A program made the position numbers and the translations under genes. This document shows, piece after piece, positions 39,927-59,712 of a DNA stretch of 64,000 bases. The notes below the pieces were generated by a model. The model made no database searches. It was not told the DNA's origin and worked only from the letters and a program-made list of their open reading frames with translations. The stretch spans positions 5,648,387 through 5,712,386 of the forward strand of contig NZ_MPPL01000001.1 in the NCBI RefSeq assembly GCF_001911425.1, in the 5' to 3' direction. Source of the stretch: Mucilaginibacter polytrichastri. Lineage in GTDB: Bacteria > Bacteroidota > Bacteroidia > Sphingobacteriales > Sphingobacteriaceae. The stretch's first letter is position 1, and every line of letters begins with the position of its first letter.

Positions 39927-40865
39927 ATGAGCAGTGCTGCACCATACAGGGTAAAGACCATTACCGAGTTTCACAGGCTGAATAGCCTGCCCGGACCGCT
40001 GCATCCGCTCGTTAGCCTGGTAGACTATGCCATGATCCGCCATCCGCAGGAACGAAGCGGGTTAAGTGTAGTATTCGATTTTTATTCGATCTCGATCAAG
40101 CGGGGGCTGAACTATAAAATGATCTATGGCCAGCAATCCTATGACTTTGATGAGGGCATCCTGTTTTTTTTGGGCCCTGGCCAGGTGCTGAGAGTTGAGG
40201 TAAACGAATATGCAAACAATGAGCCTTCCGGTTGGTTGCTGCTGCTGCACCCTGATTTTTTAGCTAACACGGCCCTGTCGAAAAATATCAGGCAATATGG
40301 TTATTTTGGCTATTCGGCCAATGAAGCGCTTTTCTTGTCCGAGCGGGAAGAGCAAACTGTGAATGGATTGATCAGTCATATCCAGCAGGAATGCGAGGCT
40401 TATACCGACAGGTTTTCAAAGCAGATCATCGTGGCTGAACTCGAAGCTCTGTTTGGCTATGCAGACCGTTTCTATCATCGTCAATTCATCACCCGCGAAA
40501 GCGGCAGCCACCAGGTGCTTGGCCGCCTGGAAACTTTACTCGACAAGTATTTCAGCAGCGGAGAACAGTTGCTTCATGGTATTCCCACGGTTCAGTCTGT
40601 AGCCGAAACACTCCACATGTCCCCTAATTACCTGAGCGGCCTGCTGAAAACACTTACCGGCTTGAACACCCAGCAACATATCCATGAAAAACTCATCGCG
40701 GCTGCGAAACTTAAACTATCTAATACCGATCAGACAGTGAGTGAGATCGCTTATAGCCTCGGTTTCGAACATGTGCCGTCCTTCAGCAAATTATTTAAGC
40801 AAAAAACCAGGCAATCACCCGTCGCGTTCAGGCAGGGTTTCCAAAATGGCTTTACGGAAAACTAA
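39927..40865 (+). CDS. AraC-family transcriptional regulator
   Basis: C-terminal double HTH (VAETLHMSPNYLSGLLKT..., VSEIAYSLGFEHVPSFSKLFKQKT). Confidence 0.92.
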   Translation: MSSAAPYRVKTITEFHRLNSLPGPLHPLVSLVDYAMIRHPQERSGLSVVFDFYSISIKRGLNYKMIYGQQSYDFDEGILFFLGPGQVLRVEVNEYANNEPSGWLLLLHPDFLANTALSKNIRQYGYFGYSANEALFLSEREEQTVNGLISHIQQECEAYTDRFSKQIIVAELEALFGYADRFYHRQFITRESGSHQVLGRLETLLDKYFSSGEQLLHGIPTVQSVAETLHMSPNYLSGLLKTLTGLNTQQHIHEKLIAAAKLKLSNTDQTVSEIAYSLGFEHVPSFSKLFKQKTRQSPVAFRQGFQNGFTEN

Positions 40866-42562: not shown

Positions 42563-42615
42563 CGTTGTAATGTTTTGTTGATGCAAAATTACCGGTCGTC
42601 CAAGCCGGCACACGA

Positions 42616-42627
42616 TAACAATTGTTA
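42616..42627. promoter_or_regulatory. TAAC-N4-GTTA palindrome, candidate Crp/Fnr-family operator
   Basis: TAACAATTGTTA, 54 bp upstream of the monooxygenase ATG and just downstream of a Crp/Fnr gene. Confidence 0.5.
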
Positions 42628-42632
42628 ATTAA

Positions 42633-43157
42633 TCACTTCCTATTCCTGATCCGGCTGAGTGAAACGGAAGTGATCCCAAGGAAAGAAGCGATATAATGTT
42701 GCGGTACCCTGAGGATGATTTCGGGATGATGTTCCAGCAATTCTTTGTACCGCTTTTCCGGGCTGTCTTTAATGCGAGAAACAAAAAGCTTCTGATAATG
42801 CAATAACCTACTTTCCACAAGTGCGCAATAAGAAGCACGAAAATCTGCATCCTTGGCTTTCCTTTCTTTGAATTCGCTTAAGGGCAAGCTATAAGCTACG
42901 GTTGGCTCTAGGGTTCCCACGCTATACCAACTGGGTTCATTAGAAATAATGGTTTCCATGGATGACACGAAGTTACCTTCAAATCCAAATGACATCGTAA
43001 TTTCTTTGCCATCGTCGGCATTGAACCAACACCTGCAACAGCCGGTTTCGATGAAAAATAACTTTTTGGCCAAAGCACCTTCTTTAACCAATAACACCCT
43101 TGCGGGGAATTCTTCCCTTGTACAAATGGATTTTAGACGATCCGTAAAATGCTCCAT
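42633..43157 (-). CDS. Crp/Fnr-family transcriptional regulator
   Basis: cNMP-binding-like N-terminus; HTH VPQHYIASFLGITSVSLSRIRNR. Confidence 0.88.
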   Translation of the reverse strand: MEHFTDRLKSICTREEFPARVLLVKEGALAKKLFFIETGCCRCWFNADDGKEITMSFGFEGNFVSSMETIISNEPSWYSVGTLEPTVAYSLPLSEFKERKAKDADFRASYCALVESRLLHYQKLFVSRIKDSPEKRYKELLEHHPEIILRVPQHYIASFLGITSVSLSRIRNRK

Positions 43158-43299
43158 AGAACTAAGTTCGGGAAAATAATAATTCCGGCTACTGAATGAT
43201 CAAGTGCTTTATTTGAGTAAGTCGGTTATTCTGTGCCATCTTTATACTCGTAACGAGTTCTTTCGCTTTTTCGTATGACATGGCTCTTAAGCATATGAA

Positions 43300-43463
43300 A
43301 AACATATCAGCCGCGAAAACGGAACTATCTAATACCTATCAGACAGTGAGTGAGATCGCTTATAGTCTCGGTTTCGAACATGTGCCGTCCTTCAGTAATT
43401 ATTTAAACAAAAAACCAGGCGAGGTGAGCAAAAATTGCTTGAAGGCCGGGTTAAAAAAATAAT
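43300..43463 (+). pseudogene. Decayed AraC-family C-terminal fragment
   Basis: KTELSNTYQTVSEIAYSLGFEHVPSFSNYLNKK nearly duplicates the C-terminus of the 39927-40865 AraC gene; no N-terminal domain. Confidence 0.85.
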
Positions 43464-43559
43464 TAATAAACGTGGCGCACACCCCAGCACAAGATGGCCG
43501 GTAGATGTGCACTACGCGTTTTTAATTTTCTTAATTTTTCATTTGTGAATGAATAACAA

Positions 43560-44543
43560 TTATGGCCGGAGGATAATACTGCCTGTGGTTTTACGTGATT
43601 CAAGATCGGCGTGTGCTTTCCCTGCATCGGCTAATGCGTATATGCTTGTGTTTTGAACATTCAATATACCTTTCCTCAGCAAATTAAATACTTCAGTGAC
43701 CGCTAAAGTTATCTTTTCCTGATCTTGCAGGTACTGATAAAGGGCAGGATTTGCATAATGAATGTTCTTTTGCTCCATTAATTCTGTGTATATAGTTGGC
43801 ATCCCGGAAGGCCAGCCGTACAATACCGCACTGCCCCCGGCTTTGATCAAGTCAACAGATTTTTGAAAAGTTGCTTCCCCGGTGCCATCATATACCGCAT
43901 CCAGGCCTTTGCCCTGCGTGACCTTATTTACTACGTCAGCAAAATCCTCCGATTGCAGATTAACAACGTGCTCAAATCCACGCGTCAAGGCGAGCTCTTT
44001 TTTGGCGGCACCACCTACGGTTCCGATCACTATAGCACCTAACGCCCTTGCCCAGTCACTAAGTAAGGTACCAACCCCACCTGTCATAGCGTGTATTAAG
44101 ACAATATCGCCGGACTTTACACAGTAACTTTGTTTGAGGAGCATATGGGCGGTTAACCCCTTAACTAAAACAGCCGCAGCCTGGTCAAAAGTGATGTCAT
44201 CAGGAAGTTTAAACAGACTGGATGCAGGAATGATCCTGCTTTCTGCATAAGCCCCCATAGCAAATGGATAAGCTACACGGTCGCCAATGACAAAATCCTT
44301 TACGCCAGGCCCGACAGCTTCAATGATACCGGCCGCCTCCGAACCTACGGGTGCGGGGTAGGTGTCCATCGGAAACGTTCCGTTTCTAAAAAAAATATCT
44401 ACGAAATTTACCCCAATACTTTTTTGAGCAATTAAAACTTCTGTTTCTCCCGGCTCCGGCAGCGTTACGGTTTGATATCTCAACACGTCAGGTGATCCGG
44501 TCTGTTCAATAAGCACTACCGCGCTTGATCTTTCTGTTTTCAT
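43560..44543 (-). CDS. Quinone oxidoreductase-like zinc-binding/MDR family protein
   Basis: GSEAAGIIEAVGPGV, HAMTGGVGTLLSDWARALGA; start set at MKTERSS. Confidence 0.9.
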   Translation of the reverse strand: MKTERSSAVVLIEQTGSPDVLRYQTVTLPEPGETEVLIAQKSIGVNFVDIFFRNGTFPMDTYPAPVGSEAAGIIEAVGPGVKDFVIGDRVAYPFAMGAYAESRIIPASSLFKLPDDITFDQAAAVLVKGLTAHMLLKQSYCVKSGDIVLIHAMTGGVGTLLSDWARALGAIVIGTVGGAAKKELALTRGFEHVVNLQSEDFADVVNKVTQGKGLDAVYDGTGEATFQKSVDLIKAGGSAVLYGWPSGMPTIYTELMEQKNIHYANPALYQYLQDQEKITLAVTEVFNLLRKGILNVQNTSIYALADAGKAHADLESRKTTGSIILRP

Positions 44544-44607
44544 TTTGTACTTCTGTTTATTTTGAATTACAAAATTAATCCATGTAACTTTATAAAAGGA
44601 ATGGCTG

Positions 44608-44639
44608 TCCCAAAGGGAAGTCGCTTCCCAAAAGGAACT
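44608..44639. promoter_or_regulatory. Phased direct repeat, candidate HxlR operator
   Basis: TCCCAAAGGGAAGT (44608) and TCCCAAAAGGAACT (44626), 18-bp phase, in the divergent intergenic region. Confidence 0.45.
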
Positions 44640-44656
44640 TTCTAATAAGAATAAGA

Positions 44657-45013
44657 ATGGAAATAATCTCAAATGACTGCTTACAGCGGTTTAAGGCGAT
44701 AAATGATGTAAAAGATATCTTGAGCGGAAAATGGAAAATCATGATCATCGCAAGCCTGTCCGTATTTGGAGAAAAGCGTTATACAGAATTACAGCGGATC
44801 ATTGACGGTATAGGCACTAAGATGCTGTCAAAAGAATTGCAGGAACTCGAAATAAACGGATTAATCAAAAGGACTGTCATGCCCACTAAACCTGTTACCG
44901 TCAAGTATGAGCTTACTGCATACGGAAGCACACTTAAACCAATTATTGATGAAATGGCTTCTTGGGGAAGCCAGCACAGGGTTAAAGTTATTCAGGAGAT
45001 AGCCGCGAAATAA
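44657..45013 (+). CDS. HxlR-family transcriptional regulator
   Basis: LSGKWKIMIIASL, RYTELQRIIDGIGTKMLSKELQELE. Confidence 0.93.
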   Translation: MEIISNDCLQRFKAINDVKDILSGKWKIMIIASLSVFGEKRYTELQRIIDGIGTKMLSKELQELEINGLIKRTVMPTKPVTVKYELTAYGSTLKPIIDEMASWGSQHRVKVIQEIAAK

Positions 45014-45037
45014 TTTCCCGCAATTCTTCGCACATTT

Positions 45038-45544
45038 TTACTGAGATTGATGAGTTGTCAAATAATAGGTTGCCAGGTCGATTGAAGAGAGTTCGATGAA
45101 ACCTGCCTGGCGCAAAAGGTTAACCAACTGCCCGCGATGATAGGTGGAGTGGTTCATGCTATGCGCGAAGGTTTGCCAGTATAACAGTTGTCCTGATCCG
45201 CCCCTGGGATAAACAAAGGTGACAGGATCATTGTAACTTTCTTCCGGACAATTTTTTATAAAATCCAGCATCCCCGATGAAGCTGTTTTCCAAATATTGA
45301 TAAGCTCATTTTTAGAACCCTGAAAATCAGCCGAAAGATAGATTGGGCTTGGTGTTTCCGTCCAGAAATCGATCCATATTTTTTCCGCACTGGCAATATG
45401 GGCCGCTGTTTGTCGAATACTTCCGAAACTGCTGGTAAAGGATTGATCCCATTGTGTGTCATTGATCTGGCCTAGCCAGGCCATAGCTTTATCGTTCGCC
45501 CAGCTGTTATATGCAGCTAAGGCCGTAAAATATTGTTTAGTCAT
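45038..45544 (-). CDS. DinB-family protein
   Basis: YNSWANDKAMAWL, HIASAEKIWIDFW, HSMNHSTYHRGQLVNLLRQAG. Confidence 0.9.
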   Translation of the reverse strand: MTKQYFTALAAYNSWANDKAMAWLGQINDTQWDQSFTSSFGSIRQTAAHIASAEKIWIDFWTETPSPIYLSADFQGSKNELINIWKTASSGMLDFIKNCPEESYNDPVTFVYPRGGSGQLLYWQTFAHSMNHSTYHRGQLVNLLRQAGFIELSSIDLATYYLTTHQSQ

Positions 45545-45548
45545 TTTT

Positions 45549-46370
45549 TTAATTGCTTAATTGGTACTGTTTCGGTGTGATGCCGTGTACCTGTTTAAAA
45601 GAATGTATAAAACTGGATAAATTCTCGTAACCAAGTTCATAATAGATCTCGCTGGCGGTGCTGTCTCCTTGCTTAAGGAGCATGGCAGCTTTTTGCATTC
45701 TTTTTTCCAGCAGCCATTTACTGGGCGAGGTACCATAGAGTCTGTCGAAGCGCCGCTTGAAGGTGGATAAGCTTGTATTACATAAGAAAGCCAGTTCTTC
45801 AACGCTTATCGGATGATCAATATTCGCGTTTACCGCCTGCTTGATAAGAATGTCATCAGCGTCTGACTGGCTCATTCCCCGGAGTTTTTGTAAAGCGCCG
45901 GGATACTTTTCGCCAAGGTAAAGTAAGAGCTCATGCAGCTTTAATTGCTGCATATTTGGCGAAATGGTTTGACCACCTGTGAGCATATGTCCCAGGGAAC
46001 TGATAAAATCACGGAGGAAAGCATCCTGCTCAAAGCGTAAAATGGGCTCTTCAGGTACTTCGACAGCTTGAATACGCAGCAGGTTTGGCTGTCTTGTAAA
46101 AAAATCAGCAAGCACTCCGTTATCAAAGGAGATCAAAATGCTTCGGTAATCTCCGCCGGGGGCCACTATTTTTTCGCTCATCAGGCAGTTGCCTGCGGCG
46201 AGCAGCAGGAACTGGCCAGGTATTATCCCGACCGTTGTGCCTGCATAATGAACAGTTTTTTCGCCTTCCAGCAAAAAACTAAACAGATTTTGCTGAAGTG
46301 TGATCCTGTTCCTGATGCTGGTTCCTTCCGCCTGATAGCTAAAGATAGAGATCGGTTCCGCTTGTTTCAT
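45549..46370 (-). CDS. AraC-family transcriptional regulator
   Basis: C-terminal AraC HTH (LAFLCNTSLSTFKRRFDRLYGTSPSKWL, SEIYYELGYENLSSFIHSFKQVHGITPKQY). Confidence 0.92.
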   Translation of the reverse strand: MKQAEPISIFSYQAEGTSIRNRITLQQNLFSFLLEGEKTVHYAGTTVGIIPGQFLLLAAGNCLMSEKIVAPGGDYRSILISFDNGVLADFFTRQPNLLRIQAVEVPEEPILRFEQDAFLRDFISSLGHMLTGGQTISPNMQQLKLHELLLYLGEKYPGALQKLRGMSQSDADDILIKQAVNANIDHPISVEELAFLCNTSLSTFKRRFDRLYGTSPSKWLLEKRMQKAAMLLKQGDSTASEIYYELGYENLSSFIHSFKQVHGITPKQYQLSN

Positions 46371-46381
46371 TTCAGGCTAAT

Positions 46382-46867
46382 TTAATGCTTTTGTCCGTAA
46401 ACCAATAAAGAGGTCTTAGCAAGCGTAGCGTAATGAAGGTTGAATCCTACATAGGCAGGCGTAGCGTTCTGATTCAGCTCAATTTCCTGGGCGAGGGCAT
46501 GAACAGTAATCATATAACGGTGGGCCGGGCCTTCGGGTGGTGCTGCTCCTGCATAACCGGGAATACCCACGTCGGTATTACTTTGTATCGCATTTCCCGG
46601 CATTAAATTTTTCGCCGGGTTGCCGGCATCGGGTGGCAGTTCATGAACGTCAGCTGGAATATTGAATACAACCCAATGCCAGAATCCGCTGCCGGTTGGC
46701 GCATCGATGTCATGCATTGTCAGCGCAAAAGCCTTGGTATCTTTCGGCGCGTTCTCCCAGTAAAGTTGAGGTGAGCGGTTCTGTCCATCAAAGCCGATAA
46801 CGTCGGCATACTGTTCTCTGTTTAACTGCCCCCCTAATTCGGTGCTTTTTAAAGTGAATGTTGTCAT
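46382..46867 (-). CDS. YbhB/YbcL (PEBP/Raf kinase inhibitor-like) protein
   Basis: NRSPQLYWENAPKDTKAFALTMHDIDAPTGSGFWHWVVFNIP, GPAHRYMITVHAL. Confidence 0.93.
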   Translation of the reverse strand: MTTFTLKSTELGGQLNREQYADVIGFDGQNRSPQLYWENAPKDTKAFALTMHDIDAPTGSGFWHWVVFNIPADVHELPPDAGNPAKNLMPGNAIQSNTDVGIPGYAGAAPPEGPAHRYMITVHALAQEIELNQNATPAYVGFNLHYATLAKTSLLVYGQKH

Positions 46868-47111
46868 TGTTTTTTACATTTGATTATAGATCAAAGTTAA
46901 ACCCTTCATCCAAGCGAGCCGATAGGCCAACGTTCAAAAAGTATTGCTAAACGGTCAAATTAATGGCTTTATATTATTTTGGCTTCCACATTTGTTCCTA
47001 ACTTTATAATGGAAGTCGATTAGTTATTAGCCCGGTTCGTATGATCCATTATTTAAATTCTAGACCTAAACCAGCAAATGAAAGATAAGTCTATTGTTAA
47101 AGCAGATGCTA

Positions 47112-48239
47112 TTAGCGCATATTGAAAACATCAAAGTGAAACCTGCGCTTATCAAATCCATAGAATTTCAGATCTTCGAGTAACTTTTGCCGAAAACCCG
47201 GTGGACCGCAAAACCAGAAACTAACGTTATCGAAATCTCCGATTACATTTTTAATACGCTCGGTTCCTAACAGTTCATTATTTCTGGAGTCTAAATGGTA
47301 AAAGTTCACCCCAGCTTCCTTACAGGAATCGGTAAGTGAGTTCGGATATATCTGGCGTTTCTCGCTTTGGGTAGCGTACCAAAAGGGAATCGGTTGACTG
47401 CTGCCGCCATTTTGGGCCAGATATTCCAGCCGGGCCATGAACGGGGTTATTCCGATACCTCCGGCTACCCAAACCTGCCTTTTGCAACTATCCTCAAATT
47501 TGAATTCCCCATACGGACCTTCGAACTCGACCTCCTGGCCGATAGCCCGATGATCTGCGAGTTCTTTCGTAAAATTTCCGGAAGCCTTGATACCAAATCT
47601 TAGGCTGACAGCATCTTTACTGGCTGAGGCAATTGTAAAAGGATGAGGTTCTTTATCATGCTCGAAACGGAGGAATCGATACTGGCCCGGCTGATGAACG
47701 AAAGTCTTCCCTGGGTTTCCCAGATGCAGATCGATAATTCCTTGCTCATAATTTACGATTTCCTTAATGACCAATGTATGTTTCCTGGATTTTCCGATAC
47801 GCTGGAAAAGTCCGGTAAAACCTGCATAACAGCCCGCTAACAATAATAGGAATAATAAGTAACTACCTGGGCTCCCCAGCCAGTGATCTTTTAGCTGCGC
47901 TGTTGCGGAGTGATATGCAAATAATAGAAATACACCCGGAAAATATTTGTGAGATCTCCGAAAAAAATGATAGCTGAACCTTTCGAACAACGCGATAATA
48001 ACCAGCGCCAATAAAATATAAAAAAGCAGGTGAGCAAACAGGACGCCGGTCTGGAACAGGATCAGTTCAGGCTTGGTATATTGGCTGCAGTCAACTAATT
48101 GCCCCGGATCTGAAATGATATGCAGGACTACCAGCCAATCCGGCACATAAGCCATCATGAAATGCAAGAGCACAAATATTGTAGTCCATATACCGGCCCA
48201 TTTGTGAACAATGTACCCCTTATCAAGTCCGGCCATCAT
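47112..48239 (-). CDS. Ferric-reductase-like membrane oxidoreductase with FAD/NAD(P)-binding domain
   Basis: N-terminal TM helices, EPHPFTIAS, VAGGIGITPFMARLEYL, FWFCGPPGFRQKLLEDL. Confidence 0.88.
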   Translation of the reverse strand: MMAGLDKGYIVHKWAGIWTTIFVLLHFMMAYVPDWLVVLHIISDPGQLVDCSQYTKPELILFQTGVLFAHLLFYILLALVIIALFERFSYHFFRRSHKYFPGVFLLFAYHSATAQLKDHWLGSPGSYLLFLLLLAGCYAGFTGLFQRIGKSRKHTLVIKEIVNYEQGIIDLHLGNPGKTFVHQPGQYRFLRFEHDKEPHPFTIASASKDAVSLRFGIKASGNFTKELADHRAIGQEVEFEGPYGEFKFEDSCKRQVWVAGGIGITPFMARLEYLAQNGGSSQPIPFWYATQSEKRQIYPNSLTDSCKEAGVNFYHLDSRNNELLGTERIKNVIGDFDNVSFWFCGPPGFRQKLLEDLKFYGFDKRRFHFDVFNMR

Positions 48240-48444
48240 TTTTAGAGATCCAATTGATCCTTGCCGAGATCAGCATAGAAGCGACCATAAGTGAAATACT
48301 ACATACACCAGACAGATAGATCACTTGGTTTCTCAACTCCCAGTTTGTAGGATGTTGCAAATACAACTTTGGGCCTGGTGAAAGCGCGTAAATCAGACAA
48401 GTAAGCAAAATACTTCCTGTAACAACCAATCCAGATTTCGTCAT
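48223..48444 (-). CDS. Small membrane protein
   Basis: Two hydrophobic segments; overlaps start of ferric-reductase-like gene. Confidence 0.55.
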   Translation of the reverse strand: MTKSGLVVTGSILLTCLIYALSPGPKLYLQHPTNWELRNQVIYLSGVCSISLMVASMLISARINWISKNDGRT

Positions 48445-48457
48445 GATGATTTCATCT

Positions 48458-48844
48458 TTAAAATAAGAGTTCGCGGATATTGACCGACCTAAAATATTTG
48501 CGGTAAGAAACATAGGAAACTACCAGAATAATCAAATAGCCTATTGAACCGAAGCTATGTGCAACGGGATCATGCGATGCCAGGTGTGCGATGGGGGCGG
48601 AAATGAAAATAATAATGCATCCAAAATAAGCCCATTCTTTTAAAATTGATCCCACAGGAATTAACAAGGCCAGAACTGCTGAGAACTTTGCGAAGGCAAG
48701 CTCGATCCGGAAATAATCTGGAAAGCCCAAGTGCTGGCAGGCTTGTTTCACCTCTTCCCTGGTTAAGTAATTATAACCGGAGAAAAATACCATGGCCGCG
48801 ATCATGGCTGCAGATACCCAATATGTGATTTTTAACTTTTTCAT
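48458..48844 (-). CDS. DoxX-family membrane protein
   Basis: Four TM segments, LGFPDYFRIELAFAKFSAVLALLIP. Confidence 0.8.
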   Translation of the reverse strand: MKKLKITYWVSAAMIAAMVFFSGYNYLTREEVKQACQHLGFPDYFRIELAFAKFSAVLALLIPVGSILKEWAYFGCIIIFISAPIAHLASHDPVAHSFGSIGYLIILVVSYVSYRKYFRSVNIRELLF

Positions 48845-49015
48845 ATGGTTTTTTTTCGTTATCGAATAAGTGGAACTCATTATTGCCATTTAGAAAATGG
48901 CAAAATTTGAAAATAGAATGGCCGGCAGCCGGAAAACCCGGCAGCAGATATTAATCTCCAGTAAAATTTCAGGAATGATTACCCATGTTATCGCTGCATG
49001 GGTAATCAATGCATA

Positions 49016-49987
49016 TTATATAGTTACGACCAGGCGTTGTCCATCTGGAACTTCAAGATCCCAAAGATCAGCGATAGATTCGAGTTTGACTTTGATAGTT
49101 TCCACCACCAGCTTACCGTCCGCCGCCAGTTCGAACATTTCCGGAAGGATATCAGTGAATAAACTGCGCACCTGATCCTTCGTCCAGGCACCCAGTCCCG
49201 AACCGGTCAGCTGAATGTTTACACTTCGCAGGATAGCGGCTGAAAGTTGAATCAGGTCGCCTGTTACGCTGCCCACAGATACGAACCTTGTCCTGTTACC
49301 AAATGAACCATCTCCTTTAAGACAGGAAAGGATCATCTCCGCCGTGTGACCCCAGAGATAATCTATGACCACGTCTATTGGCGTTTCCTGATGTATTTTC
49401 TTGATTTTTGACTTAAAGCTGTCGTCGTCCTGAAGTATGGTTATAATCTCATCAGCGCCTAATGACAAGAGGTCATTCAGGGAATCCTGGTTCCGGCCTG
49501 TTACGATGATCTTTTTTGCCCCGTAATGCCTGGCGATCTGTACAGCCACGCGCCCGGTGAAACCGGTTGCGCCATTGATCAGCACCACGTCGCCATCCTG
49601 CATGTCGGCTTTGTATTTGAGTCCCATTGCGGCACCAATCACTGCATTCGGCAGTGCTGCTGCCGTAGCATCATCAAGGTTATCGGGAAGTTTTACGATC
49701 CGGTCTATTTCAATAGTTGCTTTTTCGGCCAGCATACCGCTGACACCCATCCCGAAAACTCTTGTTCCGTCTGGTAAAATACAAACGCCGTCACCGCCTA
49801 CAACTTTGCCGCCTTCCTTAAGTCCGTCGCTTGAATAGTGCTTACCGCTGGCTTTGCTTTTATCCAGATGTTTGATCGCTACCGCTTTCACGGTAACTAA
49901 TATTTCATCCTCATTTTGAGGAGTTGGTTCGGGGTAATCTACATATTGCGGAAGTTCCCCTTTTTGATACATTACTGCTGCTTTCAT
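49016..49987 (-). CDS. Quinone oxidoreductase-like/MDR zinc-binding family protein
   Basis: VVGGDGVCILPDGTRVFGMG, INGATGFTGRVAVQIARHYGAKKIIVTGRN. Confidence 0.9.
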   Translation of the reverse strand: MKAAVMYQKGELPQYVDYPEPTPQNEDEILVTVKAVAIKHLDKSKASGKHYSSDGLKEGGKVVGGDGVCILPDGTRVFGMGVSGMLAEKATIEIDRIVKLPDNLDDATAAALPNAVIGAAMGLKYKADMQDGDVVLINGATGFTGRVAVQIARHYGAKKIIVTGRNQDSLNDLLSLGADEIITILQDDDSFKSKIKKIHQETPIDVVIDYLWGHTAEMILSCLKGDGSFGNRTRFVSVGSVTGDLIQLSAAILRSVNIQLTGSGLGAWTKDQVRSLFTDILPEMFELAADGKLVVETIKVKLESIADLWDLEVPDGQRLVVTI

Positions 49988-50039
49988 TTTTATTAGTATT
50001 TGTTAGAACAAAATTAGGCGACTAAAATGGCAGCAGCGA

Positions 50040-50051
50040 TAACATATGTTA
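50040..50051. promoter_or_regulatory. TAAC-N4-GTTA palindrome, candidate Crp/Fnr-family operator
   Basis: TAACATATGTTA, 53 bp upstream of the oxidoreductase ATG and just past the stop of a Crp/Fnr gene. Confidence 0.55.
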
Positions 50052-50056
50052 TGTAA

Positions 50057-50641
50057 TCAAAAATGTGCTTTGCCTGATGCGATCTTGGTTTTGATCCTAC
50101 TAAGGTGGACAGTGGTAATACCAAGATAGCTCGCGATATAGTTCTGGGGGACGCGCAAAATAATATGCGGACGTTCGGACAGCAGTTTTTGGTACCGCAT
50201 TTCAGGTGTATCCCGTATAAAAGATAAGAACTCGTTCATATAATGCGTTTGCCGCTGTGCAGACATCTGTATAAGTGTTTTACTGAAGTCATGTATATGA
50301 ATTAGCTCATCCATGAGTTGCATCACATATTTTTTAGGCAACATGTAAACGACGGATGGTTCAATGGTTTCAATGGTAAAAGCGCTGGGCACATCATTGA
50401 TAAAGCTGTCGATGGAGGTCAGGCCTTCATGCTCAAAAAAGAACTGCACATTTTTATCCTGCCCGTTATTATTAAAATATAGACGCACACAGCCCTTCTC
50501 GATATAGATATAGTTTTGGGAGGTTTTTCCCTCTTCAAGAAGTACCGTTTTTGCGGGAACCTCCATACGTTTTTGAAATTCCAGATACTTATCCCAGTAA
50601 GGATTCAATTCCGGAAACCGTTCTTTAAATTGAAAAATCAT
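50057..50641 (-). CDS. Crp/Fnr-family transcriptional regulator
   Basis: cNMP-binding-like domain; HTH ILRVPQNYIASYLGITTVHLSRIKTK. Confidence 0.92.
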   Translation of the reverse strand: MIFQFKERFPELNPYWDKYLEFQKRMEVPAKTVLLEEGKTSQNYIYIEKGCVRLYFNNNGQDKNVQFFFEHEGLTSIDSFINDVPSAFTIETIEPSVVYMLPKKYVMQLMDELIHIHDFSKTLIQMSAQRQTHYMNEFLSFIRDTPEMRYQKLLSERPHIILRVPQNYIASYLGITTVHLSRIKTKIASGKAHF

Positions 50642-50782
50642 TGTCCATGTTGTTATTGATAATAATACCCTTTACACATAATATTCAGATCGGACATGCA
50701 ATTAGTTTTACGATAAGTAAATAATTCTGCGTAGTTCAAATATCAGCAACATAATCTTTACTTGCACACTATCTGCATTTAA

Positions 50783-50794
50783 TAACATATGTTA
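50783..50794. promoter_or_regulatory. TAAC-N4-GTTA palindrome, candidate Crp/Fnr-family operator
   Basis: TAACATATGTTA between the divergent Crp/Fnr gene and cupin gene. Confidence 0.5.
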
Positions 50795-50927
50795 TCGCTA
50801 AAGACAATGGTGTCCACTTAATTTGTAATACGGCTACACAGCATTATAAGGATGATGGAATTGATCAGCATACATGAATTGGAGGATTAGCTAAAAATGA
50901 CGGAGTATCGTCGATTACATTTTTACT

Positions 50928-51470
50928 ATGAAACGTACAATCAAAAACGCTCAATTAAGGGATACGGTAACTTTCATTCAAACTTCCGAAAGTTCCGGCG
51001 GTGACGTAACCGAGTTAGAAGTTGTGGTCATGCCGGGTGGGATAAACCCTGCACATTTCCATAAAAAATATGACGAAACGGTTCATGTGCTTGAAGGAAT
51101 ATTATTGCTTACTTTGTCTAAGAGAGCCAAAATCACCCTGCTGCAAGGTGACCAATATGTTATTAAGGCAGGACAAGTACACAGCTTACAAAATGCGGCT
51201 GATGTGAAGCTAAAACTTAGGAGCATCATAATTCCTGCCAACCAGGGATTTGAATCTGCATTACGAATAATGTACGGCTTAGCTAATGACGGACTTTATA
51301 ACGCACATAAAATGCCGCGGAATTTTGTTCACCTTTCAGTTTGTTCCGTGATGAGTGATACCCGGCTTCCTGGGTTGAAATCACTATTAAATCCAGTATT
51401 TATCCTACTTGCACACTGCGCAAGATGGACAGGGATTACAGAACGGCTTATAAGTAAATATTGTGTGTGA
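50928..51470 (+). CDS. Cupin-domain protein
   Basis: VMPGGINPAHFHKKYDETVHVLEGILLLTL, IKAGQVHSLQN. Confidence 0.85.
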   Translation: MKRTIKNAQLRDTVTFIQTSESSGGDVTELEVVVMPGGINPAHFHKKYDETVHVLEGILLLTLSKRAKITLLQGDQYVIKAGQVHSLQNAADVKLKLRSIIIPANQGFESALRIMYGLANDGLYNAHKMPRNFVHLSVCSVMSDTRLPGLKSLLNPVFILLAHCARWTGITERLISKYCV

Positions 51471-59283: not shown

Positions 59284-59412
59284 CTACTGCTGAAGGAATG
59301 TTCGCATATCATTTTACGGTGCCACAAAATATATCGCGAGCTATCTGGGAATTACTACTGCGCGCCTCAGCAGAATAAAAACTAAGATCGTATTCAGCCG
59401 CGCACATTTTGA
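59284..59412 (+). pseudogene. Frameshifted C-terminal remnant of a Crp/Fnr regulator
   Basis: LLKECSHIILR / VPQN / YIASYLGITTARLSRIKTKI across frames, matching the C-terminus of the 50057-50641 gene. Confidence 0.8.
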
Positions 59413-59712
59413 ATTAATTAACATATGTTATCGTGCTTGTTGTACAGGCCCTCCACCTTTGTTTTCATATCCATTAATGAACGTTGACGATTAAAGAAAT
59501 TCATCCTCTGTCTTCTTGTGCGGTCTTTTACACAGAAAAAGTAAAAAGTGGACAAATCAACAGAGCCGACGTCCTCATGGGTATATAAATAATTATTCGG
59601 TAACATTTTTTAGTGATATTCCTCTTTGGTGTCAACGACTTACGGCGATCATCGTCTTCATGGTCAAATCGCTGACTGAGAAGGTTACAAAAACTTAAAC
59701 CTAAACTAGACT

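Follow-up and report, generated by a model that had tools for sequence, protein, structure and literature searches.

The window analysed here is a 64,000-nucleotide stretch of the Mucilaginibacter polytrichastri genome (5.84 Mb; contig NZ_MPPL01000001.1), and its positions are used throughout. It contains genes for Crp/Fnr regulators that lie beside TAAC-N4-GTTA palindromes and predicted oxidoreductase genes. The original prediction, made from these letters, listed three such palindromes, and the sequence agrees: TAACAATTGTTA is at 42616-42627, and TAACATATGTTA is at 50040-50051 and 50783-50794. Counted from first base to first base, the next ATG is 54, 53 and 145 base pairs (bp) away, respectively, the first two as had been claimed. 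The sites at 42616 and 50040 start 5 bp past the stop codons of Crp/Fnr genes (42633 and 50057). The reported 18-mer, AGCGATAACATATGTTAT, common in inverted orientation to 50040 and 50783, is also real and reflects the TATCGCT flank. The features are:

42633..43157, minus strand: Crp/Fnr regulator 1, 174 amino acids, VSLSRI subfamily, helix ITSVSLSRIRNR (open reading frame; Pfam cNMP_binding, 1.4e-11)
42616..42627, minus strand: predicted operator 1, TAACAATTGTTA followed by TCGTG, centre AATT (the same TAACAATTGTTATCG is 3' of most VSLSRI relatives)
42584..42591, minus strand: -7 box TAATTTTG, 24 bp past operator 1 (from sequence; box position from PMC9723704)
41081..42562, minus strand: FAD-dependent aromatic-hydroxylase-type monooxygenase, 493 amino acids, predicted target 1 (Pfam FAD_binding_3, 3.3e-76; NCBIfam PRK06184, 492 bits, cut-off 476)
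50057..50641, minus strand: Crp/Fnr regulator 2, 194 amino acids, VHLSRI subfamily, helix ITTVHLSRIKTK (open reading frame; Pfam cNMP_binding, 2.7e-10; AlphaFold predicted local distance difference test score 90)
50040..50051, minus strand: predicted operator 2, TAACATATGTTA followed by TCGC, centre ATAT (kept in 71 of 73 orthologs as ATAT, AAAT or ATTT)
50009..50016, minus strand: -7 box TAATTTTG, 23 bp past operator 2, centre at -41.5 (from sequence)
49016..49987, minus strand: quinone-reductase-like oxidoreductase of the medium-chain dehydrogenase/reductase type, 323 amino acids, predicted target 2 (NCBIfam quinone_pig3, 1.6e-29, short of the cut-off; in nearly all relatives a member of this family comes after the site)
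50783..50794, plus strand: predicted operator 3, TAACATATGTTA followed by TCGC, toward the cupin gene (not conserved upstream of orthologous regulators)
50818..50825, plus strand: candidate -7 box TTAATTTG, 23 bp past operator 3 (from sequence)
50928..51470, plus strand: cupin-domain gene, predicted second target of VHLSRI regulators (Pfam Cupin_2, 5.9e-11)

The pattern TAACN4GTTA occurs six times in the window, against 1.4 expected, and none of 100 shuffles reached six. Genome-wide, the bare motif is not enriched (179 matches against 217 for the reversed pattern) and was rejected as a regulon marker. The sequence TAACATATGTTA is found five times, and its reverse not at all; four of these copies are in or beside Crp/Fnr modules and the fifth (G000:C1:2161383) is without the TCG flank. 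The window holds a fourth copy, at 59419-59430, that was absent from the original prediction and is located just 3' of a frameshifted Crp/Fnr C-terminus. The longer TAACANNTGTTAYCG appears exactly five times in the genome: at the four window sites and at a paralogous module (G000:C1:4335934), where a regulator 69% identical to regulator 2 accompanies another quinone-reductase-like gene. All five read TAACAWWTGTTATCG toward the predicted target. The informative features are the TCG flank and the promoter spacing; the bare 12-mer is uninformative. Note that the genome has 32 Crp/Fnr matches at an E value of 0.01. Across 30 Crp/Fnr loci, TAACN4GTTA is within 1.5 kb only at regulator 1, regulator 2, its paralog, the relic described below and the paralog's neighbour.

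At each of the five genome sites, a TAnnTTTG-like -7 box follows 23 or 24 bp past the palindrome. The box is TAATTTTG at the monooxygenase gene, the quinone-reductase-like gene and the paralog, TTAATTTG at the cupin gene and CACCTTTG at the relic. Since the -7 box of Flavobacterium spans -12 to -5 (PMC9723704), the palindrome would be centred at -41.5 where the spacing is 23 bp and at -42.5 where it is 24 bp. This predicted placement is the one from which CRP and FNR act as class II activators; examples of FNR sites at 41.5 have been described (PMC1802743).

Relatives of regulator 2 show the same arrangement. We collected 80 named loci encoding such relatives, from Mucilaginibacter, Pedobacter, Chitinophaga, Flavobacterium and others, of which 73 were parsed. 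The site is 3' of the regulator gene in 71 of the 73, and the next gene is nearly always quinone-reductase-like. The centre is ATAT in 48 cases, AAAT in 22 and ATTT in one, and TCG directly follows the palindrome in 66. The distance to the -7 box is 23 bp at 44 sites and 24 bp at 24 sites, with no box at the other three. Judged on box spacing, with start sites predicted from the box, 68 of 71 sites thus have an N4 palindrome centred near -41.5. In information content, the palindrome comes close to 2 bits, TCG to 1.7-1.9 and the next T to 1.2; the value drops to near zero across the 20-bp spacer and rises once more at the -7 box. While the distance from stop codon to site ranges from about 0 to 300 bp, that from site to box is constant. 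At three loci (L078, L089 and L098) no regulator is encoded within 3 kb, yet the site is kept at the quinone-reductase-like promoter. Because the box spacing is constant, the site is kept without a regulator, the arms are invariant and RNA folding is unremarkable at two of three sites, we take the site to be a promoter element rather than part of the regulator gene. Autoregulation through the same site was considered and rejected, since TAACN4GTTA is found within 400 bp upstream of the regulator in just one of 73 relatives.

In other genera, regulator 1 relatives (44-53% identity) mostly carry TAACAATTGTTATCG 3' of the gene. The gene that follows usually encodes not a monooxygenase but a protein of 196 amino acids that, by the look of its sequence, is a flavodoxin-fold NAD(P)H dehydrogenase-like enzyme. 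We scanned 301 genomes of the order with TAACNNNNGTTAN{21,26}TANNTTTG; total counts in these genomes were similar to the control. Among the matches listed, spacings of 23-24 were found for 38 of 40 AWWT centres, compared with 62 of 107 other centres (Fisher p 6e-6). Many of the listed AWWT matches, and few of the others, are 6-7 bp 3' of a Crp/Fnr gene encoding 191-194 amino acids, ahead of a quinone-reductase-like gene. When 396 Bacteroidota genomes were scanned blind with TAACAWWTGTTATCGN{20,21}NANNTTTG, 16 matches turned up in 12 genomes, and none with the reversed control. Of the 12 matches outside this genome, 11 are 3' of a same-strand Crp/Fnr gene, and the twelfth precedes a DoxX-like gene. 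Enrichment beside orthologous Crp/Fnr genes, expected from the original prediction, is therefore apparent for 71 of 73 regulator 2 orthologs and most regulator 1 orthologs, and the phylum-wide scan concurs.

With a confidence of roughly 85%, we read the palindromes as operators from which the adjacent Crp/Fnr regulators act as class II activators. Each would be the operator of the regulator encoded directly upstream, whose dimer would bind TAAC-N4-GTTA. For VHLSRI proteins the full site may be approximately GATAAC-ATAT-GTTATCGT, and for VSLSRI proteins TTAAC-AATT-GTTATCGT. Relative to the predicted sigma-A promoter of the next gene (a TAnnTTTG -7 box with no clear -33 TTTG), the palindrome centre would be at -41.5 or -42.5, from where the dimer could contact RNA polymerase in class II fashion and so switch on the neighbouring oxidoreductase gene. 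What the comparison shows by itself is the conserved site, its orientation, its spacing and its linkage, and on these counts the proposed assignment of the sites to adjacent Crp/Fnr proteins is supported. Binding, and activation rather than repression, we infer. Since the predicted targets are quinone-reductase-like, flavodoxin-fold NAD(P)H dehydrogenase-like, FAD monooxygenase and DoxX proteins, the inducer may be redox-active or electrophilic, such as a quinone.

Logically, the adjacent proteins might instead repress, keeping sigma region 4 off the -33 region until they are released by a ligand. This would fit the overlap between that region and the site with its TCG flank (about -47 to -32), and repression from such positions is known for some Crp/Fnr proteins. 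However, all 68 boxed sites have the 23-24 bp spacing that is a hallmark of class II activation, and there is no evident good -33 TTTG, in keeping with an activator-dependent promoter. We therefore consider repression unlikely. It is less likely still that one shared or global regulator owns the sites, with the adjacent Crp/Fnr genes incidental or themselves targets. Such ownership would fit TAACAAATGTTACCG-like sites before TolC-like, DUF2892 and TSUP genes, which have no Crp/Fnr gene within 3 kb; these imply action at a distance by at least one such regulator. Against it, the other paralogs of this genome are without a TAACN4GTTA of their own nearby, centre and half-site track the helix of the neighbouring regulator, and TAACANNTGTTAYCG occurs in the genome only at modules.

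Could the palindrome act in RNA, as a hairpin or terminator ending the regulator transcript? In most genomes the site is 5-17 bp past the regulator stop, and of three sites, one has a somewhat better fold than its shuffles (z -2.19). The remaining two show no excess over expectation (z -1.27 and +1.09), there is no U-tract, and across 71 loci the arms are invariant with no compensatory changes. In addition, the stop distance varies from about 0 to 300 bp but the spacing to the -7 box does not, and the site persists at target promoters with no regulator nearby (L078, L089, L098 and L185). On the folding scores and missing compensatory changes we rejected this explanation, which is highly improbable. 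Chance palindromes of AT-rich intergenic DNA, for which the lack of genome-wide enrichment of the bare motif might speak, have a negligible probability; sequence, orientation and spacing are conserved phylum-wide, which already refutes them.

The original prediction also proposed that the four central bases confer specificity. Our specificity set comprised 109 regulators with TAACN4GTTA 3' of the gene. For VHLSRI regulators (n=88) the centre is ATAT in 58, AAAT in 29, ATTT in one and AATT in none. For VSLSRI regulators (n=21) it is AATT in 19, AAAA in one and ATTT in one. Hence, the centre correlates with regulator type (AATT for 19 of 21 VSLSRI proteins; ATAT, AAAT or ATTT for 88 of 88 VHLSRI proteins), and that part of the proposal stands as a correlation across essentially two clades. 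The two VHLSRI regulators of this genome, which have an identical 15-mer, should cross-talk.

Position 178 is Val in all TAAC-linked VHLSRI and VSLSRI regulators, and mostly Glu or Gln in other paralogs of the genome. It aligns with FNR Glu209, the residue that recognises the G:C of TTGA. Relatives of the L015 type (ISQETLSRLK; ETLSRL) have TTGAC-N4-GTCAA, mostly 5 bp past the stop codon, with 23 bp to a TTnnTTTG box (also written TTGnTTTG) in 18 loci. Given the FNR Glu209 alignment, Glu at 178 in this group is consistent with the TTGAC half-site. The genes after these sites (L015 and L301-L329) look like predicted secreted proteins. For the L007 type (ITPETFSRV), a TTGAT-N4-ATCAA site was not confirmed, as just three relatives passed the threshold. 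Two VTPEFLSKM regulators are exceptions that precede TAACCTATGTTA at pirin-like genes; therefore, the rule relating helix to site is not simple.

Some observations weigh against our interpretation. In a helix-free tree the VHLSRI and VSLSRI types require one change and the centre 11. The centre is thus conserved inside each type, and its link with the helix holds as a correlation, resting on a single contrast between types that are essentially two clades. In L004-type relatives (ITPVSLSRIR) the strict palindrome is usually not found. Finally, operator 3 probably serves the cupin gene, but this promoter has an imperfect -7 box and a long leader.

Both regulators and the paralog score above the PF00027 cut-off. 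The AlphaFold model of regulator 2 matches CRP and FNR chains and contains a helix-turn-helix (helices 158-163, 166-173 and 177-188); it has no wing strands after the recognition helix, and no Pfam helix-turn-helix model matched. These proteins resemble FNR and CRP at class II promoters in their cNMP-binding fold with a helix-turn-helix, half-sites 4 bp apart and a predicted centre at -41.5. Unlike FNR and CRP, the protein ends after the recognition helix, and the site is between regulator and target, with few targets per genome rather than a global regulon. Regulator 2 has a single Cys (C51), unlike FNR with its four-Cys set of 4Fe-4S ligands. The phosphate-binding cassette of CRP has an Arg-Ser/Thr that contacts cAMP; at the equivalent stretch (NDVPSAFTI) no Arg-Ser was noticed by eye, and the NCBIfam CRP model gives 20 and 34 bits against a cut-off of 266. 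Cys51 is kept in 102 of 109 TAAC-type regulators, compared with 5 of 25 other paralogs, and is a candidate sensor residue, nothing more.

The closest Protein Data Bank entry by sequence is 3DN7 (6.2e-37), a Crp/Fnr protein of unknown function from Cytophaga hutchinsonii, with 194 residues and the same short C-terminus. We know of no operator, target or ligand for it. PrfA of Listeria also belongs to the Crp/Fnr superfamily, and its recognition helix carries a non-Glu residue. The PrfA box, TTAACANNTGTTAA (PMC5359189), is nearly identical to the operator core described here, and the inner TAACANNTGTTA matches. However, the outer pair differs (A/TTAAC...GTTAT), so that these are not full PrfA-type operators. 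Phylum, promoter type and targets also differ, and our sites have a conserved TCGT flank on one side. We find no evidence for common descent of the two.

A second site type, TAACAWWTGTTACCG with near variants (TAACCTTTGTTAC in another genus), has the same 23-bp spacing (L080, L082, L087, L092, L094, L097, L101-L104 and L106). It precedes genes for TolC-like outer-membrane proteins (447 amino acids), small DUF2892-like CC-containing proteins and TSUP-like transporters. In most cases there is no Crp/Fnr gene close by, and the window's genome has no copy. These sites probably form the separate regulon of a distant Crp/Fnr protein. Elsewhere (L131, L132, L141, L067 and L122), genes of pirin-like, OsmC-like and sterol-desaturase-like proteins come directly after other Crp/Fnr genes. 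The TAACN4GTTA sites at these loci have centres CTAT, CCGG, GTTT and TTTT, 23-24 bp from a -7 box.

Further features of the window are:

48458..48889, minus strand: DoxX_2 protein, probable further module member (Pfam DoxX_2, 4e-17; at L185, L211 and L258 the gene right after the site is DoxX-like)
59324..59410, plus strand: decayed Crp/Fnr C-terminus, frameshifted, 72% identical over 29 residues
59419..59430, plus strand: predicted operator 4 (relic), TAACATATGTTA followed by TCGTG (promoter-like CACCTTTG at 59454-59461, 23 bp on)

The decayed regulator, operator and degraded -7 box at 59324-59461, with no recognisable target gene, look like the relic of a third VHLSRI module. Just past the quinone-reductase-like stop codon, a perfect 11-bp inverted repeat (GATTACCCATG...CATGGGTAATC, 48978-49008) is probably a transcript-end hairpin. 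A half-site match at 48978-49000, between that stop codon and the DoxX gene, belongs to this repeat and was rejected as an operator. The stretch 43302-43463 resembles the C-terminus of an AraC-type regulator (SEIAYSLGFEHVPSFSNYLNKKPG), has similarity to the AraC gene at 39927-40865 and contains no intact gene; it is likely a gene remnant.

This kind of system is known, while the operator, targets and cassette layout appear to be undescribed in the literature searched. No paper with TAACNNNNGTTA, and nothing relevant on Bacteroidota Crp/Fnr operators, was retrieved, although words containing a slash could not be searched, making this weak evidence. Bacteroidota genomes encode many Crp/Fnr paralogs, and their targets and binding sites are mostly unknown. 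For three Crp/Fnr groups, the operator, the geometry of the promoter and the target gene have now been predicted, all from sequence. More tentatively, and in our view less likely than not, a large share of Bacteroidota Crp/Fnr proteins (dozens of wingless paralogs per genome) might be self-contained, single-target cassettes made up of a regulator, a gap of about 6 bp, an operator, a further 23 bp, a -7 box and an enzyme. The helix would set half-site and centre (Val178 for TAAC, Glu for TTGAC), and the conserved Cys51 might let the TAAC group detect quinones or electrophiles. If true, this would give the Crp/Fnr family a readable recognition code and a new class of redox sensor. The natural regulator-site pairs make DNA specificity inside one expanded family directly testable, and offer simple inducible promoters to try in environmental Bacteroidota.

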